Shown here one piece after another: positions 3,526 to 38,360 of a DNA stretch of 64,000 nt; within the stretch, counting starts at the first letter, position 1; each line of letters opens with the position of its first letter. A program made the position numbers and the translations under genes. The stretch is taken from the NCBI GenBank assembly GCA_015232395.1, contig JADFZT010000011.1, positions 1-64,000 on the forward strand. Reading direction: 5' to 3'. The notes beneath the pieces were generated by a model. That model was not told the DNA's origin. It was given only the letters and a program-made list of their open reading frames with translations, and ran no database searches. Origin of the DNA: Magnetococcales bacterium. GTDB lineage: Bacteria; Pseudomonadota; Magnetococcia; Magnetococcales; JADFZT01.

Positions 3526-5730
<2,205 letters not shown>

Positions 5731-16956: not shown

Positions 16957-17068
16957 AAAGCAGCCGGGTTCATTCCATTTCTGAAGTTTTTTGCTGATTG
17001 TGCCGATAGGGAGGCATGGGGATGTGGATGCCCCGCTCCGTACTCCTTTTTGATCGGAATGTCAGCCC

Positions 17069-22205: not shown

Positions 22206-22868
22206 CTATTCAAAAAAGATGTAGTCGTAGTCGCCGGTGTAGCCACATTTTTCATACCACCAGAGCCACTCTTCGGGGGTGAGGAAGGCTTCACAGGTGA
22301 GTTGCCAGTAGAGCAGGTTGGCTTTTTCCGTTTCGTTGCGATAGGACTCGACGACGATGAGTTTTTTATCTCGTCCCACGCGTTCTATTTCCCGGATGGC
22401 TCGGTCGAGGTCGAAGCAGTGGAGGTTGTGGAGGGTGGTGATGGAAAAGACGAAGTCGAAGCTGTTGTCTTCAAAGGGGAGTTGGATGGCGTTGCCTTGA
22501 TGCAGGAAGGGTTGCACTTCTTTTTTGGCGTGTTGGATGGCGTAGGGGGAGATATCGAGTCCGGATACTTCGATGCCGGGGATGGCTTGGGTGAATTCGT
22601 GGAGGAGGAAGGCTTTGCCGCAGCCTACGTCGAGGATTCGGTCTCCGGCTTTGAGTTTGTAGTGTTTGGCCATTTCCTGTGCGACTGGCAGCCATCGTCC
22701 GTCGTAGTGGTAGCCGCCGTAGCCGTAGTGGCGTTCGCCATCCCAGTATTCTTTGTCCCATTTTTTAGCGATGGTGGCGCAGTGGGCTTTGTCGTGATCC
22801 AGCACCCGTTGGCGGTAGTTTCGTTTGGTTCGGGTATGGAGTTTACCGATAAAGTCTACGCGTTCCAT
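22206..22868 (-). CDS. Class I SAM-dependent methyltransferase
   Basis: 220 residues. Motif I is ILDVGCGKAFLLHEF, motif II SGLDISPYAI, then GNAIQLPFEDNSFDFVFSITTLHNL. These define a Rossmann-type methyltransferase. The N-terminal 70 residues are rich in Tyr, His and Trp (KEYWDGERHYGYGGYHYDG). The substrate is unknown; it is separated from the sugar cluster by repeat DNA but lies in the same orientation, so a sugar or lipid substrate is plausible. Confidence 0.8.
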   Translation of the reverse strand: MERVDFIGKLHTRTKRNYRQRVLDHDKAHCATIAKKWDKEYWDGERHYGYGGYHYDGRWLPVAQEMAKHYKLKAGDRILDVGCGKAFLLHEFTQAIPGIEVSGLDISPYAIQHAKKEVQPFLHQGNAIQLPFEDNSFDFVFSITTLHNLHCFDLDRAIREIERVGRDKKLIVVESYRNETEKANLLYWQLTCEAFLTPEEWLWWYEKCGYTGDYDYIFFE

Positions 22869-22886: not shown

Positions 22887-23060
22887 TTAACTATTAAAAA
22901 AAAAGCGGGGGGGGATTGGGGGGGATTCTTCCTCCCCAAGGTCTTTCCTTTGATCTTGATTTTGTTTCTCATCCTTTGATCTTGATTTTGTTTCTTATCC
23001 TTTGATTTACAACCCCCCGGGGGTGTGGGGGCGAGCCCCCACGGTCTTTCTTTTGATTTT
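22887..23060. repeat. Inverted copy of the 3.2-3.5 kb repeat block
   Basis: The run AAAAAAAAAGCGGGGGGGG, the CCTCCCCAAGGTCTTTCC module, two TTTGATCTTGATTTTGTTTC units and the GTGGGGGCGAGCCCCCAC hairpin are the reverse complement of the modules at 3195-3469. The two blocks face each other across about 19 kb. Confidence 0.8.
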
Positions 23061-23094
23061 GATCTTGATTTTGTTTGTCATTTTTTGATCTTGT

Positions 23095-23333
23095 TATAGC
23101 AGTTCCATTTGGAAATGATGCATCGTGGTCTCTTCGATAAAAAACCTAAAAACAAAATCAAGACCTTGGGGCTGCGCCCCAAACCCGCTGGATATGGAAA
23201 ATCAAAAGATTAAGTCAAAAGATTAAGTCAAAAGACAAACCGTGGGCTCTGCCCACACCCGGAAGGGAGATAATCCCCCTTCACCCCTAATAGTAAAATC
23301 AAAAGCAAAATCGACAGAGGATCTTTACACTCT
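23095..23333. repeat. Partial MITE end and two further hairpin modules
   Basis: TATAGCAGTTCCATTTGG at 23,095 matches the outer end of the MITE-like element at 24,257. Hairpins TTGGGGC-TGC-GCCCCAA (23,166-23,182) and GTGGGC-TCT-GCCCAC (23,242-23,256) follow, each preceded by GACCTT- or AACCG-like sequence, so they are shorter relatives of the GTGGGGGC module. No gene is seen between 22,869 and 23,333. Confidence 0.6.
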
Positions 23334-24233
23334 TTATTCATCCCCCAGAAGCGAAACAAACCGTTTGCAGGCACTCTCCACATCCAGAGGCATCAATCTG
23401 GTTGCACGGATCCATTTGACCGGGTTCATGGAAATATTCAACGGACGCTCTTCCAAAAAATCAAAATCATTGATTCGACAGTAGGTCACCTTCGGTTCCG
23501 GAAAGACGATCCCCCCCTCTCGCAGATGTGCCAGCAGCCGCCGGAACATGCCTGCCCGACTGATAGCCATGGGTCCGCAAAGGTGAAAGAGGCCGGAAAG
23601 ATCATCCGCCACCAAACGCATCAACCCCGTCGTCACATCTTCCATCAGGACAGGTGAAAACAGTTCATCTTCCGCCAGCCGCTGATGTTCTTCCCGGCGG
23701 AGAGCATCGAACCAGTTGGCCAGCAGCATGCCATCATGGGGCTCAGTACCATAAACTTTGGAAAGCCGGATGATGGCGTGATCCTCCCCTGTTTCCTGAA
23801 GAAACTTTTCCACCGCCACCTTTTGTCGGCCATAGGTGCTTAAAGGATTGGGAACGTCGGATTCGTTATAGTTGCTGCCACAACCATCAAACACCTGATC
23901 GGTGGAGGTGAAAAGGGGTTTGATACCGAGGCTGAGCAACCCTTCAATCAGCTTTTGAATGCCAACGACGTTGATCTCATGGGAGCGGATTTTATCCCGG
24001 GCGCAGGCATCCAGGCGGGTGAGGCCGTGGAGGATCAGAGCGTGGCTGAAGGGGCCGTGCTCCTGGATAAAAGGGGTGAGGGGAGTGGTGGCCGGGTCAA
24101 AGTGAACCATCCCGGGCTGCTCACGGGAATGCCAGGTAGCCACCGCCCGCTCAGGGCCAGCCTGGGCAAAAAGATGCCGACCGATGATGCCGGAGCCACC
24201 GATGATCAAAAAGCGGGAGGGTTGGTTCGACAT
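23334..24233 (-). CDS. Sugar-nucleotide reductase/epimerase of the RfbD-like extended SDR family
   Basis: 299 residues. An NAD(P) Rossmann motif IIGGSGIIGRHLF at the N-terminus, then LFTSTDQVFDG, and the catalytic Y-x3-K in STYGRQKVAVE. The pattern STDQVFDG plus YGRQK is that of dTDP-4-dehydrorhamnose reductase-like enzymes. The C-terminal half (LFHLCGPMAISRAGMFRRLL, then PLDVESACKRF) is also family-like. The substrate is not known. It is probably a late step in the sugar pathway encoded upstream on the same strand, though a MITE-like insertion separates it from that cluster. Confidence 0.82.
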   Translation of the reverse strand: MSNQPSRFLIIGGSGIIGRHLFAQAGPERAVATWHSREQPGMVHFDPATTPLTPFIQEHGPFSHALILHGLTRLDACARDKIRSHEINVVGIQKLIEGLLSLGIKPLFTSTDQVFDGCGSNYNESDVPNPLSTYGRQKVAVEKFLQETGEDHAIIRLSKVYGTEPHDGMLLANWFDALRREEHQRLAEDELFSPVLMEDVTTGLMRLVADDLSGLFHLCGPMAISRAGMFRRLLAHLREGGIVFPEPKVTYCRINDFDFLEERPLNISMNPVKWIRATRLMPLDVESACKRFVSLLGDE

Positions 24234-24505: not shown

Positions 24506-25267
24506 TCAGGGTTTGACCAGATATCCCGCCGGGGTGTTGGTCCAGGGGAGTGTTTTGATGATGACCTCGGGCTTGTCGGCAAAAAATTCATCCACCGCCC
24601 GGGTCTCTCCGGGCCAATCCTTGATGGCATATTCATCAAACAACAAAATGCCCCCCCGGGAGAGCCGGGGCCAGAACCCTTCCAGAGCGACCCGGGTGGG
24701 CTGATAGAGATCGCAGTCGAAGTGGATGAGGGAAAAGCGCACCCCAGGGTTTTCGTCGAGAAATTTGGGCACACTCTGCTCGATCTGGCCATCCACCAGT
24801 TTGACCCGTGGCTTCCAGGGGATAAAACGGTCGTCGTCGAAAATATCGATGGCTTCCCGCAGCTCCTGAAGATATTGAGCCGGAGAAAATCCGCCCACCA
24901 CCTTGTTGGCATCCTTTTCGGTATCGCCATCCTCCGGGGAAAAATGGGTAAAGCCCTGCCAGTTGTCAAAGCCGTAGACTGTTTTGGTGCGATCACCAAT
25001 GGCATAGGCCTCCAGCAGGTTGGCCCAGGTCATGAGCCCCAACCCCCGAAAAACCCCCAGCTCCGCAATATCCCCCGGCACCTCCAGGGTTTCCTTGAAG
25101 AGATCGGTATGGGCCAGAAATCGCTTCAACCATTGGCGGCGGCCCAGTACCGGAAAATGCTGGGCCGCTTCCATGGGCGTGATCTGGTGCTTGGCGCAAT
25201 GATCCCGCAGTCGTGCTTCGATTTCAGCGTCGATACCGGTTTTTTTAAAACCATCAAACCTGGCCAT
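24506..25267 (-). CDS. TylF/MycF-like O-methyltransferase
   Basis: 253 residues. The TylF/MycF macrocin O-methyltransferase pattern is clear: GDIAELGVFRGLGLMTWANLLEAY, VYGFDNWQGF, SLIHFDCDLYQPTRVALEGFWPRLSRGGILLFDEYAIKDWPGETRAVDEFF. Members methylate sugar hydroxyls in a metal-dependent way, and many sit in O-antigen loci. It lies 4 bases after a radical SAM gene, so it is likely co-translated. The acceptor is unknown. Confidence 0.87.
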   Translation of the reverse strand: MARFDGFKKTGIDAEIEARLRDHCAKHQITPMEAAQHFPVLGRRQWLKRFLAHTDLFKETLEVPGDIAELGVFRGLGLMTWANLLEAYAIGDRTKTVYGFDNWQGFTHFSPEDGDTEKDANKVVGGFSPAQYLQELREAIDIFDDDRFIPWKPRVKLVDGQIEQSVPKFLDENPGVRFSLIHFDCDLYQPTRVALEGFWPRLSRGGILLFDEYAIKDWPGETRAVDEFFADKPEVIIKTLPWTNTPAGYLVKP

Positions 25268-25271
25268 GGCG

Positions 25272-26279
25272 TTAGGATTCCGTCGAAATAAGGTTGAACG
25301 TTTGATAGGCGTTGAGAGGCTTGGGCTTGCCTACGTGGGGGCTGACAAAGCGGTCGAAAAATTCGGGATCCTCGCCGATGATACAGCGGGGGTGGTCGCC
25401 ACTGAACCAGGCGTTGGTCAACAGATCGGCCCGCATTTTTTGGAGACTTTTGTCCCGAACATTGCCCAGGGAATATTGCAAAAAATTGCAGGGGAGCACT
25501 TCGCCATCCGCCGTAATGCCGATAAAGCGGGTGCCTGCCGGGCAGTTGTCCTCCCCCCCGGTATAGAGATCCCGTTTGACCATCTCCTGGCCGTTGGGAA
25601 GCCTGGGGCTTTTTTCCCGGAGTTTTTGGATATATTGGGCATCCTCCGGGGTGATGAGGAGATCCTTGCGGCCATCCCAGTTGCCCACGGGTTCGGCGAT
25701 CTGCACATCCAGACGAATGCGCTTATTCAGGGCAAAGTCGTAGACCCGCTGGAACCCCTCCTGGTAGAGCGATTGATGGGTAACGACGATGGAGACGCCG
25801 GTGAGGAGCCCTTCGGCCAAAACATGATCGATGGCTTTAAGCACCCGCTGGTAGGAGCCCGGTGCCCGGTCGGCGTCGTGTTCGGCTTCGATGCCGGAAT
25901 CGAGGCTGAAGGTGATTTTGTCCACCTGCCGGGCTTTCAACCAGGCGATGGTTTCCTGATCCATGCGCCAGCCGTTGCTGATGACGTTGATGTAGGTCGC
26001 TTCCGGATGGCAATTTTCCAGAAAAAAGGCCAATCGCTCCTTGTCCTCAATGGGCTCCCCGCCTTGAAAGACATAGTGCATGCAGCCCATCTCGTAGGCT
26101 TCATCAAGCACTCGGGCAACGATGGGCAGCTCCAGAGGGGTTACCTTGGCAAAGGTTTCGGCATAGCACTTGGTGCAGCGCATGGTGCAGCGGGGGGTGG
26201 TGTCAAAGGCGATGGTGCGCAGATCCTCTGGGCGTGCGCTTTTTTCCCGAGCATGGAGCAGTGGTTTTTCGCTGTACAT
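25272..26279 (-). CDS. Radical SAM/SPASM-type enzyme
   Basis: 335 residues from ATG 26279, the first start that gives a normal radical SAM N-terminus (FDTTPRCTMRCTKCYA). The cluster ligands are C31, C35 and C38. FQGGEPIEDKERL and TFSLDSGIEAEHD follow as expected for the barrel. The C-terminus has CPAGTRFIGITADGEVLPCNFLQYSLGNVRD, a SPASM-like auxiliary cluster region. Such enzymes modify peptides, proteins or sugars by radical chemistry. No precursor peptide is seen. Context points to glycan work. Confidence 0.85.
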   Translation of the reverse strand: MYSEKPLLHAREKSARPEDLRTIAFDTTPRCTMRCTKCYAETFAKVTPLELPIVARVLDEAYEMGCMHYVFQGGEPIEDKERLAFFLENCHPEATYINVISNGWRMDQETIAWLKARQVDKITFSLDSGIEAEHDADRAPGSYQRVLKAIDHVLAEGLLTGVSIVVTHQSLYQEGFQRVYDFALNKRIRLDVQIAEPVGNWDGRKDLLITPEDAQYIQKLREKSPRLPNGQEMVKRDLYTGGEDNCPAGTRFIGITADGEVLPCNFLQYSLGNVRDKSLQKMRADLLTNAWFSGDHPRCIIGEDPEFFDRFVSPHVGKPKPLNAYQTFNLISTES

Positions 26280-26334
26280 GGTTAAAAAAATCCCCAAACG
26301 GGTTTGGTTCTGACGGGGCTGTTCATGGGCGCTA

Positions 26335-27453
26335 TCACCTCCGGATAAAACTGAGATATTGCTGTCCCCGGCCAAAAAAAGGGGCAAACCGCGTTAAGGT
26401 TGGAAAACGCTCTTCTCCGAGGGCCGCCTGGAACTCCCTGAGGGCGGCGGCGGTTTCGGTGGCAAAGGGATCAACCAACCCGGCAACCTCCCCCACCAGC
26501 CCCGCTATCCCCTCTCGATTTCCGGTATTCAACTCCCCATAGAGAGCCTCCCCCAGGGGAATAAGGGGTTGGTTGAGTTCAGGGCTTCTGGGAGGATGGA
26601 GAAAGCGATGATCCAGGAGATTGTGGAGGTTTTCGAGATAGCTCTGTCTGACGATCTCATTAAATCCCGGATCCGGATTGTGGATCGACTTATACCAGCG
26701 CCAGTCGGTAAAAAACCGGGGGGAGGCTCCCTGGACATCAAACTGGAGATCATCCCCATCCCGGCTTAAGGCGTCGATGGCGTCCGGTATGGGCAGGAGC
26801 TGGCCGGTGAGGGGTTGCAGAACGTTATCCAGAATCCAATCCCGGATGGGGCGGCTCATGGCGGGCAGAGTGGCCAGATGGGGCTCGAAAAAGGGGATCA
26901 GCTGCGCGACCTTTTGATCGATGGGGGCCTCTTTCGGCAGCCATAAATCAGCGGCAATGCGCCGCAAAATTTCGCTCAGAAAGGAGACGTTATCCATGCA
27001 GGTGATGACCAGGATACCGCCGGGTTTGACATGCCCCGCCACCCGGCGCAAAAACGCCTCGGGGTGGGTCTGCCCGGAGATCACCCCTTCGCAAAAGACC
27101 CCATCATAAAGCCCATCGCTTTGGTAGGATTCAATCAATCCCAGCTCGGTCTGCCAGTTGTCGGCTTTTGGAAAATAGTCCGAGAGGCGCTTGCGGGTCT
27201 CTTGCAGCCCGGTGGGATTACCATCCACCAGTCGATAGTGGCCCGGCGCCAGGCTCAGGGTAAAAAGGGCGTTGTGGCCGCTGCCCGGACCAAACTCCAG
27301 CAGCCGTTTGCCCTGGAGGAGCCCCGGGGGCAGCCCCAGGAGCCGATAGAGGGCGGCCCGGCGGCGGAAGTGGTTGTTTAAATCGGAAATCTCCTGGGCG
27401 ACGGGAGAGATCCGGTTTTCCCGATAATAATCGAGAAAGGGTTGGGGGCTCAT
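26335..27453 (-). CDS. SAM-dependent methyltransferase of the sugar cluster
   Basis: 372 residues from ATG 27453, whose ATGA overlaps the stop of the upstream gene. Motif I is LLEFGPGSGHNALF, with YRLVDGNPTGL next and GVFCEGVISGQTHPEAFLRRVAGHVKPGGILVITCMDNV as the later strands. The N-terminus FLDYYRENRISPVAQEI and a long helical C-terminus (about 200-370) are specific to this subfamily, which I cannot name. The acceptor is unknown. Confidence 0.78.
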   Translation of the reverse strand: MSPQPFLDYYRENRISPVAQEISDLNNHFRRRAALYRLLGLPPGLLQGKRLLEFGPGSGHNALFTLSLAPGHYRLVDGNPTGLQETRKRLSDYFPKADNWQTELGLIESYQSDGLYDGVFCEGVISGQTHPEAFLRRVAGHVKPGGILVITCMDNVSFLSEILRRIAADLWLPKEAPIDQKVAQLIPFFEPHLATLPAMSRPIRDWILDNVLQPLTGQLLPIPDAIDALSRDGDDLQFDVQGASPRFFTDWRWYKSIHNPDPGFNEIVRQSYLENLHNLLDHRFLHPPRSPELNQPLIPLGEALYGELNTGNREGIAGLVGEVAGLVDPFATETAAALREFQAALGEERFPTLTRFAPFFGRGQQYLSFIRR

Positions 27454-28724
27454 GGAGCCGGGTCCAGGGGGATAGGCAGATGGAAGGTAACCCCCGGACG
27501 TTGCAGGCGCTGGACGATGGGCTGGGCCAGGTGGGGAGAGAAGGCCATGAATACCGCGCTGCCCTCGGGAATCCGGTCCGGGGGAAGGATGGGGCGGCCC
27601 AGGTGGGTACGGCCCCATTGATGGGGATCCTCATCCACAAAAAAGGGCGCTTGGCTGCCCCCTTCCTGAAAGAGCCAGGTGGCGGCGATGGAGGTGCCGA
27701 AAATGGCGGGTGCCTGGTCGGCGGTTCCCAGTTTTTTCAGGGCACGGGCACTCTCCTGAAGCCAGGTGAGTCGTGCTTGGAGATCCTGCTTTATCCCGGC
27801 TAACTCGATGCTGGATGGGGTCGGGGGAGGGGGGGCGTTGTTGTCGCAGCCGGAATCGCCGACACGCGGGCTGTTACGGAGGCCATTACGGTGGCCGATG
27901 CCGGGCTTTTTGCCGCCACGCTTGGCCGTCCAGTTGGGCGTGCGCACCTCCGCCCGTTTTCGAGGGCGCGCCACCACCGAAAGCTCCTTGGAGACCCAAT
28001 CCCGGGTGACATGAAAACATTGAAACCCGGCGCGGCGTAAAATCCACACCAGGGTGGCCGGGGTAAAATGGCTGCAATGATCCGCCACCAACAGATCAAA
28101 GGGGCTCTCCTGCCAGTAGGGCACCTGAATGAGCACCAGGCCATCAGCGGTGAGCTTGGTGGTGATGCGCTTTAAAAAGGTGACCGGGTCGGGCAGATGC
28201 TCGAAAAGGTGGACCAGGGTGATGAGGTCGAAGCGTCCCGGGAGCTGATAGGGCTCCGGGGTGACGAAGAGCTTGGCACCCGGTATCGCCTCAACGCTTT
28301 TTTGATGGCGTCCGCTCCATTCGGTGCCGTGGAGTTCCCAGTCCGGTTTGCGGCTGGAGAGGGTTTTGAGCAGGGCACCGTTGCCACAGCCGATATCGAG
28401 GAGTCGTCCCTTTTCCGGCAGACCGAACATGCCGCACAGCCCTTCCATGATGCGCTCCGAGCGGCTTTGGGAGCTGCCGGAGTCCTGAAAAATGGCCTGT
28501 TCGTGGCTGTCACTCTGGGCATAGATTTCATAGCCCTGGTAAATTTGGCGCACCTCTTTGTGCCACTTTTCATCGGGCCTTTTTTGCACGGTACCGCAGT
28601 TGGAGCAGAGATAGAGCCTTCCTCCCCGGCTCCAGGGGCGGCAGTCGGAGGTGACCTGATGAAAAGCGTGGGGATAGGCTGTGAGGGATTGTCCCTGGCA
28701 CACATGGCAGATGGGAGGGCTCAT
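27450..28724 (-). CDS. C-methyltransferase-like protein with N-terminal zinc site
   Basis: 424 residues. The N-terminus has CHVC and later CSNC, a zinc-binding pair seen in sugar C-methyltransferases. Motif I is LLDIGCGNGALLKTL, followed by LVHLFEHLPDPVTFLKRI and LIQVPYWQESPFDLLVADHCSHFTPATL. The C-terminal third has a second Rossmann-like region (APAIFGTSIAATWLF). That order (zinc, methyltransferase, C-terminal domain) is that of NDP-sugar C-methyltransferases such as TylC3-type enzymes. A Pro/Lys/Arg-rich insert near 255-305 separates the halves. Start and stop overlap the neighbours by 4 bases. Confidence 0.75.
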   Translation of the reverse strand: MSPPICHVCQGQSLTAYPHAFHQVTSDCRPWSRGGRLYLCSNCGTVQKRPDEKWHKEVRQIYQGYEIYAQSDSHEQAIFQDSGSSQSRSERIMEGLCGMFGLPEKGRLLDIGCGNGALLKTLSSRKPDWELHGTEWSGRHQKSVEAIPGAKLFVTPEPYQLPGRFDLITLVHLFEHLPDPVTFLKRITTKLTADGLVLIQVPYWQESPFDLLVADHCSHFTPATLVWILRRAGFQCFHVTRDWVSKELSVVARPRKRAEVRTPNWTAKRGGKKPGIGHRNGLRNSPRVGDSGCDNNAPPPPTPSSIELAGIKQDLQARLTWLQESARALKKLGTADQAPAIFGTSIAATWLFQEGGSQAPFFVDEDPHQWGRTHLGRPILPPDRIPEGSAVFMAFSPHLAQPIVQRLQRPGVTFHLPIPLDPAP

Positions 28725-30634
28725 GTCCGTTTGGCTCCGCTGTTGACCATATTGGAATAAAAATGCTTGAAGAGCAGCCCGCTGAGGCCAAAGCCGGTGG
28801 CTTCGGCTTTTTCGATAAATTCATCGTGGAGAACGTGATAACGGGGTAAAAAATCCCCATAGGCTCCGACAAAAAAATGCTGGGCCCGGCGGTGCAACTC
28901 CTCATCGGAACAGTCGGCTGAAATGCGATCAACAATCTCCCGAAAATAGCCGTCGTTGGCGCTGCCCAGCTCTTCCTTCAGAGTGGCATATTGCTCTTTC
29001 AGCTGGGCAAAATCATCTTTCAGGGCATGGAGGATATCGCTGTTCATGGGGTTGGTCATGCGGGCGATGAGGTTTTCCAGCTGAATCTGATAGGAATTTA
29101 ATTTCAGCGTCATGGGAAAACGTCCGAAGAGGCCGTCCCAATGGCGGGCTACCCGCTCGGCGGTGGGATCCTTGAAGGTATATTTGGGCAGCTGCCAATA
29201 GTGCTCCGGCTCCCGCACCCGCCCCTCTTCCCGGAGCACATGATACATTTTTGAATCCCGAATCAGCATCAGCACGTTGGAAAGATTGTTGGGATTGTCG
29301 GTGAGCCCCAGGGAGCGGACAAAATCGATGTTTTGGCGGATGGTCTCCAGGGTGGAGTTGGGGCCAAACATGATGAAGCCGATCATGACGAAAAAGCCGT
29401 CGATCCCCTGAAGCCGTTTGACCGTGCGCAGATTTTGTTCCAGGTTGGCCCGCTTTTCAAAGAACGCCAGCTCCTGATCCGATCCCGACTCGGCACCGAC
29501 GATGATGATGTCGATGCCCGCCTGCTTCCAGAGTTTCAATAACGCTTCATCCTCTTCTTCGAGCAGGGTGTCGCAGCGCATATAGATTTTGGCGGAGAGG
29601 GGGATCTGGCGCTGGATGATATCGGTGCAGATTTTTCGGGTGCGCTCCTTGCCCTTTTTGCCCGGATCCTCGAAGGAGGAGTCGGCAAAGTTGAAGATGC
29701 GGGCGTGATGGTTTTTGGAAAGATGTTCCAGCTCATCCACCACCTTGGTCGCAGAGCGGCCCCGCCAGAGTTTGCCCTTTTGCAGGCGGGTGTAAAAATT
29801 GACCGAGCAAAAGCTGCACCGGGCGATGCAGCCCCGGGAAGTGGAGATGCGCACACTCTCCATCAGCCCGCCATCCTTGGGATCCCGCTGGGCCTGACCC
29901 AAAAAATCCCGGGCGGGAAAAGGCAGGATATCGAGATCCGGAATCAAGGGCCGGGGAGGGTTGTGGACAATGGTGCCGTCGGGTTTCCGCCAGACCAGTC
30001 CCGCGATGGCGGCAAAATCGATGGCTTGGGGGGAGCGCTCCGGCACTATCGGGATCGCTGTCGAAGCAGAATCGGCTGAGGGATTTTTTTGTTGGTGCAG
30101 GGCCTGCATCAACAGGCGCACCGTCTCTTCCCCTTCCCCCACCACGATGCAGTCGAAGAGGGGTTCGCTTGCCAGGATCGATTCGGATTGGGCCGCGAGA
30201 AAAGGCCCCCCCAGCACGATCAACGCCTGGGGCCGCCGGGCTTTGATTCCCTCAGCCACCGCCCGCACACTGAGATAGTTGACCATGTTGAGCTGAAAGC
30301 CGTAGAGATCCGCTTCCACTTCGATGGCCGCTTCCAGCTCCTCCGGCTTGCCGTCGGGCTGGCACTGGTGGATCGTGACGGGAAAATTTTGCTCCCGCAG
30401 ATAGGCGGCAATAGCCCCCACCCCCATGGGAATTTCCTGATCGAACTGGCTGTCACCCTGCATCACCACGTTGATCATCGCCAGTGTCGGCAGTGCCCCT
30501 CCCGATTGGGTTTGGGGGCTTTGGGAGGCAGCCGTACCATCCCCCACCAGAGAGAGCCTGCTGCCCTTGGATGGGGGGGGGTGCCCGGTGTGGGCTGCCG
30601 GATGGATTTTGGTTTTGAGGATGGGAGTCGCCAT
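28721..30634 (-). CDS. B12-binding-domain radical SAM protein
   Basis: 637 residues. A low-complexity N-terminal 50 residues is followed by a cobalamin-binding-like domain (VVMQGDSQFDQEIPMGVGAIAAYLRE, ALIVLGGPFLAAQSE, CIVVGEGEETVRLL). The radical SAM core has SRGCIARCSFCSVNFYTR with the CxxxCxxC ligands and SGSDQELAFFEKRANLEQN. The long C-terminus is helical. B12 radical SAM enzymes often methylate unreactive carbons or rearrange rings. It is 9 bases downstream of the glycosyltransferase gene and overlaps the next methyltransferase. The substrate is unknown. Confidence 0.85.
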   Translation of the reverse strand: MATPILKTKIHPAAHTGHPPPSKGSRLSLVGDGTAASQSPQTQSGGALPTLAMINVVMQGDSQFDQEIPMGVGAIAAYLREQNFPVTIHQCQPDGKPEELEAAIEVEADLYGFQLNMVNYLSVRAVAEGIKARRPQALIVLGGPFLAAQSESILASEPLFDCIVVGEGEETVRLLMQALHQQKNPSADSASTAIPIVPERSPQAIDFAAIAGLVWRKPDGTIVHNPPRPLIPDLDILPFPARDFLGQAQRDPKDGGLMESVRISTSRGCIARCSFCSVNFYTRLQKGKLWRGRSATKVVDELEHLSKNHHARIFNFADSSFEDPGKKGKERTRKICTDIIQRQIPLSAKIYMRCDTLLEEEDEALLKLWKQAGIDIIIVGAESGSDQELAFFEKRANLEQNLRTVKRLQGIDGFFVMIGFIMFGPNSTLETIRQNIDFVRSLGLTDNPNNLSNVLMLIRDSKMYHVLREEGRVREPEHYWQLPKYTFKDPTAERVARHWDGLFGRFPMTLKLNSYQIQLENLIARMTNPMNSDILHALKDDFAQLKEQYATLKEELGSANDGYFREIVDRISADCSDEELHRRAQHFFVGAYGDFLPRYHVLHDEFIEKAEATGFGLSGLLFKHFYSNMVNSGAKRT

Positions 30635-30643
30635 GGACTGGTT

Positions 30644-32620
30644 TTACCCGTCGTTTATTTTCGAAACCATCGCCAAAATCCGTTCGGCGAAAAGATCGAA
30701 TGAGTGGTGTGGAGGGATATCCAGGGGGTTGCCTTCGGGAATGCGGGTGAGGCACTTTTTCAGCTCTTTCCGGGTGTTGAAAAAGAGACATTCATCGTCC
30801 CAGTTGGGGGGCTCGGTATAGGCTCTGGCATCGTAGACCACCGGAATCGCGCCACACGCCGCCACCTCCACCAGCCGCTGTGAGTTGACCAGACGGGGGT
30901 TGGCACACAGGGCGTAGCGGGCTTCGTTGTAGACTTTGGCCACCTCGGGTCCGTGGCTCAACTCCCCCTTGTAAAAGGGCAGGATTTCCGGGGTTTTTTG
31001 CCAGCTCCAGCCATACACCTCCACCTCATAACCCAACTCTGATCCCACCTGACACCACCAGACCACGGTGGTGGTGCGCAACACCTTGGAAAAGTGCCAT
31101 AAACGGACGGCTTCAAAGGAAAGGTCGAACCGTTCAGCTTCGCTCTTTAAAAATTCATCCGTGACCTCACCATTCTCTTCCAGCTTGTCATGGATCGCCC
31201 GTTCGATTCCTATATAGGTATGGGGGGCCTCATAGCCGGAGCCGACAAAGACAATTTTTTTGCGCCCTTCAAGGGGCTGGGTGAGGCGAAAATGATCGAG
31301 ATCCACACAAAAGCTTTGTCGGTGAATTTCCGGTGCCTGACAATCTTTCAGCATGTCGTCAAACTGGGGATAGGAGGAAAAAACGATATCCCGCTCCCGC
31401 CAGGGGAGAGGCTCCCGATTATAGATTTCCGGCATGGGATCCTGCCACCAGATCACGTTGAAGACATCCTCGTGGAGCATCTGGTTGTTCAGGTGATTGA
31501 TGCTGACCGTGATGTGGGGATTGAATTCAATCTGTGCCTTCAGAGCCTGGACGGCATCCAGAGCCTCCATATCGTTTTTTTCCAGGACCACATGGGTCTG
31601 GCACCCCAGCTTTTCGAACGCCTTGGCCAGATTTTTGGAGCTGAACTGCATGACGGTGGTCAGGCGGGAAGCGCGGAAATAGATTCGTAAGGGTTCATCC
31701 GGTTTAAACTCAGGACGGTTGCAGATGGATTCGTTGGCCAACACCTGGACTTTGCGTTTGCGGGTGACCTCGATGCCATCCAACTGCCAGGCGATACGGA
31801 TGGCCTGGCTGATGGCAGAGGCGTTTTCCAGATCAAAGGCGACCTCTTTGGGGATGCGTAGCCGGGTGTTCAAAAGAACAGGATACATGTCGTCGAAAGG
31901 GATGCTGACCAGGTTGGCCGGGTCATCCGCCAAGGCTTCCCCGGGGTGGTAACAGACTTGCAGTCCATCGACAGCCGTGGTGAGTTCTATCCGGTTTTGT
32001 TTCAGCGCCTCCCTGCGGGCCACCTGGGAATCAACGAAAAAAGTGTCTGACAGCGGTCGGGGATTTTCCGGCTGGCTGTTGTTGTAGTGATGGTAGAGCT
32101 GTTGATGCACCCCGGCAGAGGCTGGACACTCCAACCCGGCAAAACTGTTGGTAAGCCCCAAGTGCAGCACATCCCAGTTGAAACGGATTTTCAGCGCCTG
32201 CTGATAGGTGACCGCCGCCTGGGAATACTCCTTCTTGATCAGGTAGGCCATTCCCAGATTGCTCATCGCCTCGATATGTTCGGGATTGATCTTCAACACA
32301 TCCTTGTAGCGCGCCATGGCGGCATCCACCTGCTCCCGAGCCAGAAGGGTGTTGCCCAGGCTGTTGAGATAGGTGGTATTTTGGGGTTCCTGAAGGATGG
32401 CGCGGCTGATGAGGTTCAGGGCCTTGGCATAATCTTCCTGCTTGTGGGCCACCAATCCCAGGAGATAGAGGAGCAGGGAGTTGTTGGGCTGTTGCTCCAG
32501 GAGCTGTAGATAGATCTCCTTGGCCTGATCATACGCCTCGGCCTTGTGGCACTGGGTGGCCCGGATGAGTTCCTCCTGGTAGTGGCGCTGGGCTGCGGAC
32601 ATGGACTCGTCTTCCTTCAT
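30644..32620 (-). CDS. TPR protein with CgeB-like glycosyltransferase domain
   Basis: 658 residues. Residues about 10-165 are TPR repeats (QAKEIYLQLLEQQPNNSLLLYLLGLVA; NTTYLNSLGNTLLAREQVDAAMARYKDVLKINPEHIEAMSNLGMAYL). The C-terminal half is a CgeB/YkvP-like glycosyltransferase: LRIYFRASRLTTVMQFSSKNLAKAF, FNVIWWQDPMPE, then RLVEVAACGAIPVVYDARAY near the end. TPRs may hold the acceptor protein or carrier. An alternative start at 32602 has a better ribosome site (GAAGGAAG). Confidence 0.83.
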   Translation of the reverse strand: MKEDESMSAAQRHYQEELIRATQCHKAEAYDQAKEIYLQLLEQQPNNSLLLYLLGLVAHKQEDYAKALNLISRAILQEPQNTTYLNSLGNTLLAREQVDAAMARYKDVLKINPEHIEAMSNLGMAYLIKKEYSQAAVTYQQALKIRFNWDVLHLGLTNSFAGLECPASAGVHQQLYHHYNNSQPENPRPLSDTFFVDSQVARREALKQNRIELTTAVDGLQVCYHPGEALADDPANLVSIPFDDMYPVLLNTRLRIPKEVAFDLENASAISQAIRIAWQLDGIEVTRKRKVQVLANESICNRPEFKPDEPLRIYFRASRLTTVMQFSSKNLAKAFEKLGCQTHVVLEKNDMEALDAVQALKAQIEFNPHITVSINHLNNQMLHEDVFNVIWWQDPMPEIYNREPLPWRERDIVFSSYPQFDDMLKDCQAPEIHRQSFCVDLDHFRLTQPLEGRKKIVFVGSGYEAPHTYIGIERAIHDKLEENGEVTDEFLKSEAERFDLSFEAVRLWHFSKVLRTTTVVWWCQVGSELGYEVEVYGWSWQKTPEILPFYKGELSHGPEVAKVYNEARYALCANPRLVNSQRLVEVAACGAIPVVYDARAYTEPPNWDDECLFFNTRKELKKCLTRIPEGNPLDIPPHHSFDLFAERILAMVSKINDG

Positions 32621-32689
32621 GGGGCGCTTCTTGTCTGGATATGGGGCATGGCGGTGGATTGTCAGCTCTCAACCATCAGCTTTCAGACG

Positions 32690-33571
32690 TCAGGCTGCCT
32701 GTTGCAACTCATTCAAAATGGGATAGTCGAACCGTTCAGCCACCTCTGCCATTTTGGGCATGATTTTCAGGCAGAAGAGGAACATCATCTGATGGTTGTC
32801 CGGCCAGGTGAGAAAGGTGGAGCGGGGATCCTTGGGGGCTTTTTTCCGGCGGTGGGCATTGATCTTTCCCTGGGAAAAGACCGATTCCAGATAACCATCG
32901 TCACAGGGCAGAGCCCCTTGGGTCATGGTGCTGAAAAGCTGCCCAAAAGTGCCGGGATCCCGGGTAAAATCCTCCATGCGGAAGATATGATCCTTTTCGA
33001 GGGTGAGCATGTGAATATCGTTGGCCATGGTTTCCAGAGCCACCCACAAGAAGGTCATGTCGTCGATAAAGGCCTTGATATCGCCAGTGCCGTTCAACGG
33101 GGCGATAAATTTGGCCTCCATGAAGCGATCGACAATGGATTTATAGCGTTTGGCATAGTGAAAAAAGAACTCCACCAGCGCCATGCATTCAGTGCCGGAG
33201 GCGGTGTGGGCCGCCTTGTCCAGGTGGTGGGTGGTGAGTGAGGTGACCCGCATGATGGGATCCCGGGCAATCATGCCGAAGCGACCCTGACGGGCGTTGG
33301 CGGCCTGTTGCATGGAGAGGCCGTGATAGCCGTGAACCGCCCCGGCAAAATGGTCATCCCCCCCCAAAGAGGCCAGATCTTCGGCAAATTGTGCAGGGGT
33401 TCTTTCAGTGGAGCCGGGATTGGATTGGGGCTCATGCTCCTGGGATGCGGGAATCTGGGGCCAGAAGCGGCCGCCATGAAAGCAGGTGACGTTGGGGTGG
33501 AGATCCAGTGAGCGGGCCAGCCAAGCGGTGGCAGAGCCTCCCCAGGAGGAGAGATAAAATATTTTCGACAT
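32690..33571 (-). CDS. Sulfotransferase-like protein
   Basis: 293 residues from ATG 33571 (GAAGGTAG ahead). The opening KIFYLSSWGGSATAWLARSL resembles the 5'-phosphosulfate loop of PAPS sulfotransferases, and MIARDPIMRVTSL resembles the 3'-phosphate-binding strand. FRMEDFTRDPGTFGQLF is the usual late block. The spacing is typical, but overall similarity is low, so I call it sulfotransferase-like. It would sulfate a hydroxyl of the cluster's glycan. No PAPS synthesis genes are near. Confidence 0.65.
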   Translation of the reverse strand: MSKIFYLSSWGGSATAWLARSLDLHPNVTCFHGGRFWPQIPASQEHEPQSNPGSTERTPAQFAEDLASLGGDDHFAGAVHGYHGLSMQQAANARQGRFGMIARDPIMRVTSLTTHHLDKAAHTASGTECMALVEFFFHYAKRYKSIVDRFMEAKFIAPLNGTGDIKAFIDDMTFLWVALETMANDIHMLTLEKDHIFRMEDFTRDPGTFGQLFSTMTQGALPCDDGYLESVFSQGKINAHRRKKAPKDPRSTFLTWPDNHQMMFLFCLKIMPKMAEVAERFDYPILNELQQAA

Positions 33572-33891
33572 GTCTACCTTCTTTCGTTGCACATCCCGTT
33601 GGGTGTGATCCCAAGTCCACTATAGGGTCAAATTGGGGCGTATCCGGATCCGGAGGATCCAGGGGATCCAGAAATAGGATGCAATTTTCCTGCCGTTGTT
33701 TGGGAGGGCTTGGCACTGGCCTGGGAGAGGAGCGGGAGTGAGGTTGGGGGTGGGGGAAAGGGGGCGTGGTATCGCTGTTTTTCCGGAACTGGCTGGGGAT
33801 ATATCCCCGTGTGGGAAAATAGCCGGATCCCAGGGTCAGGCCCTGGAGCGGGCGTAACCGGGGGGGGATTTTTTTGCCTCTGTCCCCCAGA
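33572..33891. other. 320-base gap with GGATCC repeats
   Basis: The largest gap in the minus-strand sugar cluster. It shows a short cluster of GGATCC-containing repeats near 33,645-33,670 (GGATCCGGAGGATCCAGGGG) and no convincing frame. It must carry any separate promoter for the sulfotransferase and genes after it. Confidence 0.5.
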
Positions 33892-34956
33892 TCAGACGAA
33901 GACGCCGTGGTCGGGATCAATCGCCAGATAGTCGAGGATGGCGAGATTTTTGGTGTGGGAAACACAGTGGTGGGGGCAGCTTTGGGAGGGGTCGAAGGTG
34001 AGGAGACGCTGGCGGTTTTCTTCGGAAAACCAATAATCCTTGAAAGAGCGCTCCCGGATGGAACCTAACAGCCCGCTGGTGGTATAGGCCTTGTCCTGAC
34101 AGGTGTAGACATTTTGATCCGCCCCGATCACGGTGAGAAATTGTAAAAAGGGGCAGCGGGTATAGTGCTTGTCGAACCGTTCCTCCAGCTCGTGGACATG
34201 GTTGATGAGCTGGAAGCGATCATCGGTGAGGGCTTGGGCTCGCTGGATTTCAGCTTGAACAGCTGGAGCGATCTCCTGATGGTAGCGGTTGTTTTCGCCG
34301 CCACTGTTGGCCACCACCACGCCTGAGAGTTTGACATGGCTGGCCCCTGCTTCTTTGAATTGGGTACATGCTTCCAGCAGATGGGGATGATTTTCCCGGG
34401 TGACGATAAAGCTGACCCCCAACACGCAGTCGCTCTGCTGTTTGGCAAAGGCGGTCATGTTATCCAAGAGATCCGTGAAAGGTTTGCCCTGGATACCCCT
34501 CGCTTTGCGGTAGCTCTCATCATCCCAGCCATCCACTGAGATACGCACCCAGGTGGCGTGGCTTGCCAGGGCTTGGGCCACCCGGCCCTTGAGGTTGGAG
34601 CCGTTGGTGATGGCTGCGACCCCCACACCCCCCTCTGCCAGACGGGTGATGATTTCAGGCAGGGGTTTATAGAGCAGAGGCTCCCCGCCACCGGTAAAGG
34701 TGACCGCCTTGACCCCCATGGCCACCAGGTCGTCGGCAATCTCGTGCATTTTGTCCTCGGGGATGGCGTCCTCCTCCACCATCTTCTCACCCAGATTCAG
34801 GTGGCTCACCTTGTAGCAGCAATACCAGCAGTCGTGGTTGCAGCGGTTGGTGGGCTTGATGCGGATGTGCACGGGTGCGGCCACGGTACCTTTTTCGAGG
34901 GCCTGCAATCGATCCCCAAAGCGCAAAAATTTAAGAGAGCTGTAGAGCACGCTCAT
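33892..34956 (-). CDS. Radical SAM/SPASM enzyme
   Basis: 354 residues. RIKPTNRCNHDCWYCCYK carries the cluster Cys C39, C43 and C46. FTGGGEPLLYKPL and WVRISVDGWDDESYRKARG are standard barrel motifs. The C-terminal half keeps a SPASM-like set of Cys (CPFLQFLTVIGADQNVYTCQDKAY ... SCPHHCVSHTKN). It is 5 bases after the transketolase C-subunit gene, so it is co-translated with the ThDP enzyme. The substrate is unknown; the context is sugar modification. Confidence 0.85.
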   Translation of the reverse strand: MSVLYSSLKFLRFGDRLQALEKGTVAAPVHIRIKPTNRCNHDCWYCCYKVSHLNLGEKMVEEDAIPEDKMHEIADDLVAMGVKAVTFTGGGEPLLYKPLPEIITRLAEGGVGVAAITNGSNLKGRVAQALASHATWVRISVDGWDDESYRKARGIQGKPFTDLLDNMTAFAKQQSDCVLGVSFIVTRENHPHLLEACTQFKEAGASHVKLSGVVVANSGGENNRYHQEIAPAVQAEIQRAQALTDDRFQLINHVHELEERFDKHYTRCPFLQFLTVIGADQNVYTCQDKAYTTSGLLGSIRERSFKDYWFSEENRQRLLTFDPSQSCPHHCVSHTKNLAILDYLAIDPDHGVFV

Positions 34957-34961
34957 GGCAT

Positions 34962-35888
34962 CTACTCCGGCATGGAGAGGCGGATCCGTTGGGCCATCGC
35001 TTCGGGGGTGAGATCCAGCGCCTGAAGTTGGGCATTTTGGGAGCCGTAGGTTTCGGTAAAGGCGTCGGGGAGGGCAAAGCGCAAAATCGGTGGATGGTTG
35101 GCGCGCATGCCGTGATTGATGGCATCGGTGACCGCCGAGCCCAATCCCCCGATGCGGGAGTGCTCCTCCAGGGTGACCACCATTTTGGCTTGGGCGGTGA
35201 GAAAGAGAACCGCCGTCTTATCCAGGGGCTTGACCGTGTGGAGATTCAACACCGAGCAGACAATCCCTTCCTCAGCCAAAATATCCGCCACCTGGAGCGC
35301 CCGATGCACCATCACTCCACACGCCATGAGAGCCACCTGGCCCCACTGACGCAGGAGGGTGCCCTGACCGATGACACATGGATCCTCGGGACGGGAGACG
35401 ATGGGATCGTTGCCCTTAGCAAGCCGGATATAGATCGGTCCGGGCCAATCGAGGGTTTGTGTCATGAGCCGGGCCATCTCATGGGCATCTGCCGGGGCCA
35501 GCACCGTCATGTTGGGCAGTGCCCGCATCAGGGCCATATCCTCAATGGCGATGTGGGTCGGTCCCAGGGGGGCATAGACCAGGCCGCCGCCGTTACCGAT
35601 CAGTCGCACCGGCAGGTTGTGCAGGCAGAGGTCGATGGCGACTTGCTCGTAGCAGCGGCGGGTGAGAAAGGTGGCGATGGTGTTGACGTAGGGAATAAAC
35701 CCCTCCATGGCGAGTCCGGCAGCCATGCCGATGACATTCTGTTCGCTTACCCCCTCCATGAAAAACCGCTCCGGAAATTCGGCCTTGAAAGCATCCAGGG
35801 TACCCGCCCCCAGATCCGAGCCGATGAAGAGCACCCGGGGATCCTGCTTGGCCAGGGTGTGAACCGCATTGAGACAGGTTTTGCGCAT
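34962..35888 (-). CDS. Transketolase-like C-terminal subunit
   Basis: 308 residues. Pyrimidine-binding and C-terminal domains of the transketolase/DXS superfamily: FFMEGVSEQNVIGMAAGLAMEGFIPYVNTIATFLTRRCYEQV contains the conserved Glu for cofactor activation, then LPVRLIGNGGGLVYAPLGPTHIAIEDMALMRALPNM. The C-terminal domain follows (CGVMVHRALQVADIL, VVTLEEHSRIGGLGSAV). It works only with the N-subunit encoded 3 bases upstream. Split transketolases outside central metabolism commonly act on special sugars. Confidence 0.9.
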   Translation of the reverse strand: MRKTCLNAVHTLAKQDPRVLFIGSDLGAGTLDAFKAEFPERFFMEGVSEQNVIGMAAGLAMEGFIPYVNTIATFLTRRCYEQVAIDLCLHNLPVRLIGNGGGLVYAPLGPTHIAIEDMALMRALPNMTVLAPADAHEMARLMTQTLDWPGPIYIRLAKGNDPIVSRPEDPCVIGQGTLLRQWGQVALMACGVMVHRALQVADILAEEGIVCSVLNLHTVKPLDKTAVLFLTAQAKMVVTLEEHSRIGGLGSAVTDAINHGMRANHPPILRFALPDAFTETYGSQNAQLQALDLTPEAMAQRIRLSMPE

Positions 35889-35891
35889 GGA

Positions 35892-36737
35892 TCAAGCTCC
35901 CTCCAGGCTATCGTAGAGGCTCTGGATGGCGGTAGCGTCGAGATAGGATTTATGGTGCCAGGTGGGGTTGTTTTCAGCGATGGCGAGCCCCTTGCCCTTG
36001 ACCGTATGACAGATCAGCGCCGAGGGTTTGCCGGGGGTGAAGGGTAGCTCTGAAAGGGTTGATTTCAGCGCTTCCACATCGTGGCCATCCACCTCCCGGG
36101 TTTCAAAGCCGAAGGCCCGCCATTTGTCGGCCAGAGGCTCCAGATCCATCACCTCCCGGGTGGGGCCGTAGGATTGCAGTTTGTTATAGTCGATGAGGGC
36201 GGTGAGGTTTTCAAGCCGATGCTTGGCGGCACTCATCGCCCCCTCCCACACCGCCCCTTCGTTGATCTCCCCATCCCCCAACACCACCACCACCCGGTTG
36301 GATTTTTGTTTCAGACGCTGGGCGAGGGCGAGGCCGATACCGATGGCGAGGCCATGACCCAGCGCCCCGGTGGAGGCCTCCACCCCGGGAATTTTTCCCC
36401 GCTCCGGATGGCCCCCCAGGAAAGAGTCGATCTTGCAGAAGCGCTCCAGCTCCTGGATATCAAAATAACCGTGATCCGCCAGCAGGGCGTAGAGACCCAG
36501 GCAGCCGTGGCCTTTGCTGAGCACCAAAAAATCCCGCCCACTCCAGTCGGGTTCATCGGGCTTGTGGTGGAGGATATCGTCGTAGAGCACCCGGAGAATT
36601 TCGATCAAGGAGAGCGCTGAGCCGGGATGACCTCTGCCTCCCTTGTCCAAAGCGCTCACCACCAGCCGCCGCAGCTCTCGGGAGCGCGTGTCCAGTGGGG
36701 GTGTGGCGGTGGCGTTTACCGGCTGAGGATCAGTCAT
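35892..36737 (-). CDS. Transketolase-like N-terminal (ThDP-binding) subunit
   Basis: 281 residues. The pyrophosphate/Mg motif is seen as LGDGEINEGAVWEGAMSAAKHRLENLTALIDYNK. The SALDKGGRGHPGSALSLIEI opening and LSKGHGCLGLYALL are typical. This is the first half of a two-subunit transketolase; the partner follows by 3 bases. It overlaps the upstream kinase gene by 8 bases. A transfer of a two-carbon ketol unit to make or branch an unusual sugar is the likely reaction, inferred from context. Confidence 0.9.
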   Translation of the reverse strand: MTDPQPVNATATPPLDTRSRELRRLVVSALDKGGRGHPGSALSLIEILRVLYDDILHHKPDEPDWSGRDFLVLSKGHGCLGLYALLADHGYFDIQELERFCKIDSFLGGHPERGKIPGVEASTGALGHGLAIGIGLALAQRLKQKSNRVVVVLGDGEINEGAVWEGAMSAAKHRLENLTALIDYNKLQSYGPTREVMDLEPLADKWRAFGFETREVDGHDVEALKSTLSELPFTPGKPSALICHTVKGKGLAIAENNPTWHHKSYLDATAIQSLYDSLEGA

Positions 36738-37752
36738 GGCTTGACTCCGTGAGCTGCTGGAAACGTTTTTTGACCCGGTGCAACTGTTGTTTGCTCGCCT
36801 GCTGTTGATGCTTCACCCCTTGGGCTTTGGCCCGTCTGGCCCAAACATCCGGGAGAAATTCATTGAGCATGATCAACATCCAGCAGAGTTCCAAGAGAGG
36901 GTGGAGGGCTTGCAGGCGGATGGCAAAATGATCGTCCGTTGCAAACATTTCCTGCATCTGGCGACGATAATGGTTCTGCAAGGCCGGGGCCAGTTCCATG
37001 CCGGGGTGGCTGGAAAAATCACAGGTCAATTTAACCGGATCGTCCCAGCCGAAATATTCAAAATCAAGAAAAACAATGCGGCCGTCCCTCTGGCGCAGGG
37101 CGTTGTGAAAGCCAAAGTCGGAAGGGCTCAGGAGGCGTTGGGAAGGAGTGATTTCCGAGCTGATGTCGAGCCCGGCCTGCTGATAGATCTGGCGTGCCCT
37201 CTGGGAAAATTGGTTGAGGGCGGGGGAAAAATCATTCTCCAGAAAATCGGTCAGTGAGGGGGGTGGATCAGGGAGGTCGGCCAGTCGATCATAACGCCGA
37301 TGGAGCTGATCCAATAGATCCTGCCCGGACAAAACCGCATCAGATGCTGGGGGGAGGGGGGATGAATCAGGGGCAAGGGTGAGATCCCGCAGCGCCTGGA
37401 TGAACACCAATGCCTGATCGATATCCCCAGCTGTCGGGTGGGGGATGGTTTGGCCGTCGATCCAGCTGAACAGGGCGCAGTGGTTGTGCCGATCCACCCC
37501 GATCAGCTTGGGGGTGGCGGTGAGGCCGGATCGATTCAAAAGAGCCAGCGCAGCGGTTTCCCTTCCCAACCGGTCTCGGGGATCAGAGGCTTGGGGGGGG
37601 TAAAATTTGAGCGCAAAGGTTTTTTCAGCCGTCTCGACCCGATAGAGGGGATTGTTGCCTCCTGCCTGCATTGGGGAGAGGGTCTGTATGGGGGCTTGGG
37701 CCAGCTCCTGGGCGATGGCGGTGAGGGGGAGCAGGGGAGCGGAGGGGGACAA
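36730..37752 (-). CDS. APH-family small-molecule kinase
   Basis: 340 residues. Kinase-like fold of the aminoglycoside/choline phosphotransferase family: an N-lobe with TFALKFYPP (ATP Lys), a catalytic loop S-D-F-G-F-H-N-A-L, then FLDFEYFGWDDPVKLTCDF with the metal-binding Asp. The family also includes sugar and choline kinases. Adjacent to a transketolase, it most likely phosphorylates a sugar. It begins 5 bases after hicB, which is unusual. No resistance role is suggested by the context. Confidence 0.82.
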   Translation of the reverse strand: MSPSAPLLPLTAIAQELAQAPIQTLSPMQAGGNNPLYRVETAEKTFALKFYPPQASDPRDRLGRETAALALLNRSGLTATPKLIGVDRHNHCALFSWIDGQTIPHPTAGDIDQALVFIQALRDLTLAPDSSPLPPASDAVLSGQDLLDQLHRRYDRLADLPDPPPSLTDFLENDFSPALNQFSQRARQIYQQAGLDISSEITPSQRLLSPSDFGFHNALRQRDGRIVFLDFEYFGWDDPVKLTCDFSSHPGMELAPALQNHYRRQMQEMFATDDHFAIRLQALHPLLELCWMLIMLNEFLPDVWARRAKAQGVKHQQQASKQQLHRVKKRFQQLTESSHD

Positions 37753-37757
37753 GTGGT

Positions 37758-38159
37758 TCAGCCCGTTTCCTTGATCATGCGTCGGGCCGCTTCAGCCAAA
37801 AAGCCGGAGCGGCTCATCCCCAACCCCTTGGCCAAGCCATCCACCCTGGAGAGGAGCGCCTCTTCCAGGGTGATGTTGAGTCGTACCGAGCGTTTGGGCA
37901 GATCGGCCCGCACTAGAATTCGGGCAGCCTCCCTGACTTCTGGATCCGTGGGAATCTGGTCAAGGGGTGTGGGCTCTGGAATGGCCTCCCGGTCCCGCAC
38001 CATGAGGGAAAGATGTCCGGACAAGGCCTCCTCGGCGTTGGCGGCAGCCTCCTGAATGCTCGCCCCAAAGCTGACACAACCGGGAAAGTCCGGGAAAATA
38101 ATCCCAAAACCGGAAGATCCCTGTTCAATGATGGCTGGAAAATGTCGAGTGGACATCAT
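37758..38159 (-). CDS. hicB: HicB-family antitoxin
   Basis: 133 residues. The N-terminal partial RNase-H-like fold reads FPAIIEQGSSGFGIIFPDFPGCVSFGASIQEAAANAEEAL, and the C-terminus is a ribbon-helix-helix DNA-binding domain (RSVRLNITLEEALLSRVDGLAKGLGMSRSGFLAEAARRM). It lies 6 bases after hicA. It would neutralise the HicA mRNA interferase and repress the operon. An alternative ATG 3 bases later is possible. Confidence 0.9.
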   Translation of the reverse strand: MMSTRHFPAIIEQGSSGFGIIFPDFPGCVSFGASIQEAAANAEEALSGHLSLMVRDREAIPEPTPLDQIPTDPEVREAARILVRADLPKRSVRLNITLEEALLSRVDGLAKGLGMSRSGFLAEAARRMIKETG

Positions 38160-38165
38160 CTCCTC

Positions 38166-38360
38166 CTATCGCAGTTTAAGGCCAGACTGCCGTTCAATGC
38201 TTTTCAGGGTGCCGATAGGCATCTCTTTGACAGGATGGGGAACGGTGACTTTCCCGGATTTTTCCGGATGAACAAAATGGTGATGGCTCCCTGTCACCCC
38301 TGCAAGTTGCCAGGATCCCTTCTTCAAAATTTGGATGATTTCCCGACTGCTCTTGCTCAC
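38166..38360 (-). CDS. hicA: HicA-family toxin (mRNA interferase)
   Basis: 64 residues, the usual size. It has a dsRBD-like fold with the active His in GVTGSHHHFVHP (H26-H28) and the ending VTVPHPVKEMPIGTLKSIERQSGL. It cuts mRNA when unopposed by HicB. It is the first gene of a run that continues into the sugar cluster. Confidence 0.9.
   Translation of the reverse strand: MSKSSREIIQILKKGSWQLAGVTGSHHHFVHPEKSGKVTVPHPVKEMPIGTLKSIERQSGLKLR

Follow-up and report, generated by a model that had tools for sequence, protein, structure and literature searches.

What would a bacterium build with a transketolase that is divided between two genes and set among radical S-adenosylmethionine (SAM) enzymes, methyltransferases and a glycosyltransferase? 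The question is raised by a minus-strand gene cluster of a Magnetococcales bacterium (assembly GCA_015232395.1, 4.94 Mb). The window we analysed covers the opening 64 kb of contig JADFZT010000011.1, which is 82.5 kb long; an initial annotation, made from the letters alone, had joined everything from 24506 to 38360 into one unit. We suggest instead that the heart of the locus is a smaller, conserved module with four genes at its core. That this module serves a surface glycan is well supported. The more specific proposal that it builds and activates an unusual surface-glycan sugar, through addition of a two-carbon (C2) unit dependent on thiamine diphosphate (ThDP), reduction, radical chemistry and methylation, we regard as finely balanced. 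The core genes are these:

35892..36737, minus strand: tktN, transketolase N-terminal (ThDP-binding) subunit (Pfam PF00456, 3.7e-49; module clade, support 98/95)
34962..35888, minus strand: tktC, transketolase pyrimidine-binding/C-terminal subunit (Pfam PF02779/PF02780)
33892..34956, minus strand: rS1, radical SAM enzyme with a weak SPASM-like C-terminus (PF04055, 1.1e-22)
22206..22868, minus strand: MT0, class I SAM methyltransferase, core marker (Pfam methyltransferase; outside the range of the initial annotation)

The module was recognized by its conservation. Searches of 48 Magnetococcia genomes found MT0 in 28, rS1 in 29 and tktN (E<=1e-40) in 42, about 27 of the last being of module type by score. 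A stretch of no more than 8.1 kb holds all four core genes in 18 further Magnetococcales genomes, in the Pseudomonadota genome G169 and on plasmid pDCAR1 of Solidesulfovibrio carbinolicus; gene order varies between genomes and the set is retained. In the closed genome G011 (4,719,581 bp) they lie inside ~3.6 kb, a clustering that far exceeds chance. Among 399 sampled Pseudomonadota genomes, MT0 was found in 35 (8 outside Magnetococcia) and a HAD-like companion gene in 31 (7 outside). It had been proposed that other genomes be searched for the transketolase pair clustered with the B12-binding radical SAM gene; the pair is indeed kept together, with rS1 and MT0, and loci may do without the B12 radical SAM gene. 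Our first neighbour maps were built from relatives of that enzyme, whose contig scan gave only two loci, and whole-genome searches were therefore used. Neighbouring genes were called by a simple codon score, and several loci stop at contig edges, which makes absences uncertain.

The transketolase subunits carry intact motifs. The ThDP/Mg motif of tktN (GDGEINEG...DYNK) is kept in relatives, as are the catalytic Glu (SEQN / EQN) and GPTH of tktC, and by its GDG...N plus pyrimidine-domain Glu the pair is predicted to be a ThDP carboligase. In the tree, module tktN forms a single clade (support 98/95) apart from the housekeeping transketolase; long branches meet in places, and the position of the non-module clades is uncertain. 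That clade and a separate 675-residue single-chain transketolase elsewhere in the genome (contig C70) rule out the pair as the housekeeping pentose-phosphate enzyme. Phage transketolase matches are distant from the module enzyme, and no MT0 relatives were found in viral contigs. rS1 (64–71% identity in relatives, CxxxCxxC invariant) and MT0 (65–70%) are similarly conserved. rS1 has further partners outside the module, since other Nitrospirota, a Candidatus Magnetominusculus genome among them, have it with neither MT0 nor transketolase genes nearby.

Around this core stand four companions within the window, two of them displaced:

36730..37752, minus strand: APH-type kinase, usual companion (PF01636, 1.9e-10)
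23334..24233, minus strand: RmlD-type short-chain dehydrogenase/reductase (SDR), usual companion (PF04321, 2.3e-27)
61447..62436, plus strand: SDR of epimerase/dehydratase type, displaced pathway companion (PF01370)
62461..63987, plus strand: HldE-like protein, displaced companion (PF01467, PF00294; nucleotidyltransferase first, then PfkB kinase)

A HAD-like gene and the APH kinase gene (motifs SDFGxHNALR / DFEYFGWDDPVK conserved in relatives) usually lie upstream of the transketolase, their families being present in 11 of the 25 loci compared. The HAD-like protein has an invariant DxDNT motif, reaches HAD models only below threshold (17.8 vs 27 bits) and matched no NCBIfam model; none was found in phages. 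RmlD comes immediately or almost immediately after MT0 in several genomes. In G018 and G011, genes for a SPASM radical SAM enzyme, an SDR and an HldE-like protein come before the HAD-like and APH kinase genes. A single pathway appears to be split between two places in the window genome, because orthologues of the SPASM radical SAM, SDR, HldE-like and HAD-like genes sit at contig positions 61447–66592. At least three relatives have the SDR and HldE-like genes right next to the module; the window SDR is 69% identical to a G018 gene that shares an operon with APH-tktN-tktC, and the HldE-like protein is 60% identical to its counterpart there. These genes, at 61–64 kb, point to nucleotide-sugar activation. 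The HldE-like protein was rejected as a true HldE, all of its scores lying below the NCBIfam cut-offs (161.1 vs 521, 110.9 vs 181.5 and 103.4 vs 345 bits) and its domain order being reversed. Just past its gene, a stretch of N lies between short AT-rich tandem repeats (L035 ~2100–2400; contig 64.1–64.4 kb), and a small MNT-type nucleotidyltransferase-like frame, recognized by eye, separates the SPASM radical SAM gene from the HAD-like one (L035 ~3640–3950).

Similar arrangements recur well beyond the order. In G169 the genes are SIS, SDR, HldE-like, SDR, HAD-like, APH, tktN, tktC, rS1 and MT0, and in Nitrospirota G466 they are HldE-like, SIS, SPASM, tktN, tktC, MT0 and rS1. Plasmid pDCAR1 carries consecutive HAD-like, APH, tktN, tktC, MT0, rS1, methyltransferase and RmlD-type genes, with HldE-like, SIS, SPASM and B12 radical SAM relatives nearby, amid pseB/pseC, NeuB-type and PseF-type genes. 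A rhizobial-type genus (g38, 6–8 Mb genomes) has SIS, SDR, HldE-like, SDR, HAD-like, APH, tktN and tktC, followed by two DegT aminotransferases, a weakly PhyH-like gene and MT0. A link to bradyrhizose was considered for these last genomes and dropped, a literature search on bradyrhizose having given no match. In G018 a chemoreceptor gene is inserted between rS1 and tktC (L031 2490–5063). A large gene with a SIR2-like N-terminus, again seen by eye, adjoins the module in G004 (L024 14174–18043) and is a possible defence gene insertion.

The surroundings of the module are those of a surface glycan. NeuB and PseF-like genes lie immediately or two genes upstream of it in four Magnetococcales genomes, genes for Wzz, HldE, an SDR and a GT9 heptosyltransferase come after it in G021/G029, and TPR-glycosyltransferases are also among the glycan genes at the loci. 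The NeuB, PseF and PseB/C genes of pseudaminic and nonulosonic acid clusters flank the module in some genomes, but the module itself contains no nonulosonic acid enzymes. In the window, 16237–18193 holds a UDP-GlcNAc 2-epimerase match, covering the N-terminal part of the model only, and then a NeuB-family gene, and is possibly a degraded nonulosonic acid locus.

How might the enzymes act together? The core as we propose it comprises the HAD-like protein, the APH kinase, tktN/tktC, rS1, MT0 and RmlD, plus the SDR and the HldE-like kinase/nucleotidyltransferase. The HldE-like enzyme would phosphorylate and nucleotidylate a sugar, alongside the HAD-like phosphatase, the APH kinase and, where a genome has one, an SIS isomerase; the SDR would make a keto function; and the split transketolase, distinct from the housekeeping one, would add a two-carbon hydroxyacetyl unit. 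The RmlD-type enzyme could then reduce the ketone so formed, rS1 would modify the sugar by radical chemistry and MT0 by methylation, with the B12 radical SAM enzyme, the additional methyltransferases and the glycosyltransferase as exchangeable tailoring or transfer steps. We infer the substrates, the order of the steps and a branching rather than an in-line addition.

The exchange of ThDP enzymes bears most directly on the chemistry. MT0 is found near another split-transketolase clade in G028, G033, G040 and G466, and in two phyla (Nitrospirota G543 and Pseudomonadota G279) an E1-alpha/beta ThDP enzyme stands beside it in place of transketolase; in G279, SIS, SDR and HldE-like genes are also near. 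E1-type (alphaKADH2) enzymes put acetyl branches on keto-sugars (PMC12247030), and the exchange seen here favours, without proving, C2 branching over the supply of a linear ketose phosphate. Split transketolases have been proposed to attach hydroxyacetyl in miharamycin and amipurimycin biosynthesis, and none has so far been characterised in vitro (PMC12247030). Those products are Streptomyces nucleoside antibiotics, whereas the module has a surface-glycan context and HldE-like activation. Like the YerE/ErwE lipopolysaccharide (LPS) and alphaKADH2 systems, the module has a ThDP enzyme inside a surface-sugar pathway. YerE, however, belongs to the decarboxylase family, and the module sets its transketolase beside a conserved methyltransferase and a radical SAM enzyme; the transketolase domains of tktN/tktC rule out a YerE-type branching pathway. 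We tentatively suggest, while thinking it somewhat less than probable, that one or other of two exchangeable ThDP enzymes, split transketolase or E1-alpha/beta, branches a nucleotide keto-sugar with hydroxyacetyl or acetyl, and that a radical SAM enzyme and a methyltransferase then act on it to give an undescribed class of branched sugar.

Several observations weigh against the proposed core pathway. The precedent of branching by a split transketolase is itself unproven (PMC12247030). In the window genome tktN-tktC-rS1 are adjacent, MT0 lies 11 kb off, and both MT0 and the SDR/HldE-like genes are apart from the transketolase. The rhizobial-type version is without rS1, which is hence not obligatory, and parts of the module are missing in G041 and G110. 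The HldE-like, SIS and HAD-like companions, moreover, suit a linear heptose or octose route equally well. On such a route the transketolase would supply a heptulose- or octulose-type ketose phosphate, from which SIS, HldE-like, HAD-like and SDR enzymes would make a nucleoside diphosphate (NDP)-heptose-like sugar, later methylated and radical-modified. Sedoheptulose-7-phosphate, which enters the known heptose pathway, is a transketolase product; G169, G466, pDCAR1 and the rhizobial-type genomes have SIS_2 genes next to the module; and the HldE-like protein matches both HldE domains. The enzyme classes shared with the NDP-heptose pathway (GmhA, HldE, GmhB, HldD) are SIS, kinase/nucleotidyltransferase, HAD-like and SDR, but the HldE-like protein of the module has the reversed order and scores far below the HldE cut-offs, and its HAD-like protein is without an NCBIfam match. 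Sedoheptulose-7-phosphate is, besides, already supplied by the housekeeping transketolase, and G543 and G279 use E1-alpha/beta enzymes, for which no synthesis of linear ketose phosphates is known. We consider linear extension unlikely.

A small diffusible metabolite of nucleoside or aminoglycoside type, as for miharamycin, would account for the split transketolase, which nucleoside-antibiotic clusters also contain, and for OxsB and AprD4 being the nearest PDB relatives of the B12 radical SAM enzyme. So broad a conservation within a single order is uncommon among secondary metabolites, and the NeuB/PseF, Wzz, GT9 and TPR-glycosyltransferase context does not fit, making such a product very improbable. 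If the product is a surface sugar, its destination could be flagellin rather than LPS or O-antigen. Four flagellin genes lie ~8 kb from the module in G169 and one lies ~14 kb from MT0 on the same contig in G110, and pDCAR1 encodes an MptE-like protein, a member of the Maf family of flagellin glycosyltransferases. Flagellin clusters are, however, distant from the module or on separate contigs in G011, G018 and G000, and in G021/G029 the module adjoins LPS-core genes; flagellin as the destination is doubtful.

The remaining genes of the run, with their standing in the 25-locus neighbour maps, are as follows:

38166–38360, minus strand: hicA, toxin-antitoxin neighbour outside the pathway (pairs with hicB)
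37758–38159, minus strand: hicB, toxin-antitoxin neighbour outside the pathway (PF15919)
32690..33571, minus strand: sulfotransferase-like protein (motifs by eye)
30644..32620, minus strand: TPR + CgeB-type glycosyltransferase, optional (TPR, PF13524; family in 5 compared loci)
28721..30634, minus strand: B12-binding radical SAM enzyme, frequent optional member (PF02310/PF04055; 7 loci)
27450..28724, minus strand: MT1, methyltransferase with an N-terminal Cys motif, optional (PF13489, 9.5e-21; 2 loci)
26335..27453, minus strand: MT2, methyltransferase (PF13489, 5.1e-9; singleton)
25272..26315, minus strand: rS3, radical SAM/SPASM enzyme, local (PF04055, PF13186; singleton)
24506..25267, minus strand: TylF-type O-methyltransferase, local (PF05711, 1.7e-15; singleton)

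Does the whole 24.5–38.4 kb run form one pathway, as the initial annotation held, to a C-methylated, sulfated and O-methylated sugar? The genes it named all lie on the minus strand with the domains it gave them, as domain library searches of the window confirmed; their enzyme types fit, and spacing is mostly 3–19 bases or overlaps of 4–8 bases. Tight spacing breaks down around the sulfotransferase-like gene, which is preceded by a non-coding interval of 320 bases after rS1 (33572–33891) and followed by a gap of 69 bases, and since these gaps interrupt the run it may comprise two or more transcription units. In a consensus scan, neither promoter-like nor terminator-like sites turned up in the 320-base interval, and across the region promoter-like sites were fewer than in shuffled sequence. 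Nor does the run end at 24506: it continues on the same strand to RmlD and to MT0 at 22206, both conserved members of the module. hicAB, MT2, rS3 and TylF have no counterparts at the related Magnetococcales loci compared (close to a module, MT2 has a relative only in G466, at 30%), which tells against the hicA-to-TylF stretch as a unit. Relatives of the sulfotransferase-like gene occur in six other Magnetococcales genomes on contigs other than that of the module, in G039/G016 after TPR protein, DegT and SDR genes. The label "sulfotransferase-like" is backed by eye, from conserved SSWGGSATxWL and RxPxxR..S motifs, against no match in Pfam, NCBIfam or PDB sequences; a single-sequence structure model (pLDDT 35) was unusable. 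MT1 and MT2 were rejected as sugar C-methyltransferases of TylCIII/NovU type, PF08421/PF08484 being unmatched at E<=10 and the matches generic. ThDP chemistry on a sugar together with methylation stands as the likeliest role, and a single pathway for the entire run is distinctly unlikely.

The CxxxCxxC motif and PF04055 place rS1, rS3 and the B12 enzyme among radical SAM proteins. Of the two said to be SPASM enzymes, rS3 matches PF13186 and rS1 falls short of the Pfam SPASM cut-off (19.2 vs 21.5 bits). The B12 radical SAM enzyme is 51–59% identical to its relatives and 46.5% to that on the Solidesulfovibrio plasmid, and the true start of its gene is probably near 30478–30502. A further relative (48–51% identity) lies in Candidatus Magnetominusculus (Nitrospirota; L023 9962–11746) with no transketolase nearby. 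The HicA/HicB pair precedes the APH kinase gene by 5 bases and takes the slot held by the HAD-like gene in other genomes. Further upstream are genes for a response regulator-PAS-GGDEF-EAL protein (38618–41077) and a Fic protein (44103–45266), and between MT0 and RmlD (22934–23171) lie imperfect direct and inverted repeats, TTTGATCTTGATTTTGTTT.

The open-access literature that combines transketolase, radical SAM and either glycosylation or O-antigen yielded no description of this gene set, in agreement with the view that no described pathway has it. What part split transketolases play in sugar branching is a question that the literature leaves open (PMC12247030), and the module may lead to an undescribed surface sugar. 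It spans three phyla, including the cultivated Solidesulfovibrio carbinolicus, and is therefore directly testable. If the branching proposal is true, it would define a new class of branched sugar common to Magnetococcales, Nitrospirota, Desulfovibrionaceae and rhizobial-type bacteria.

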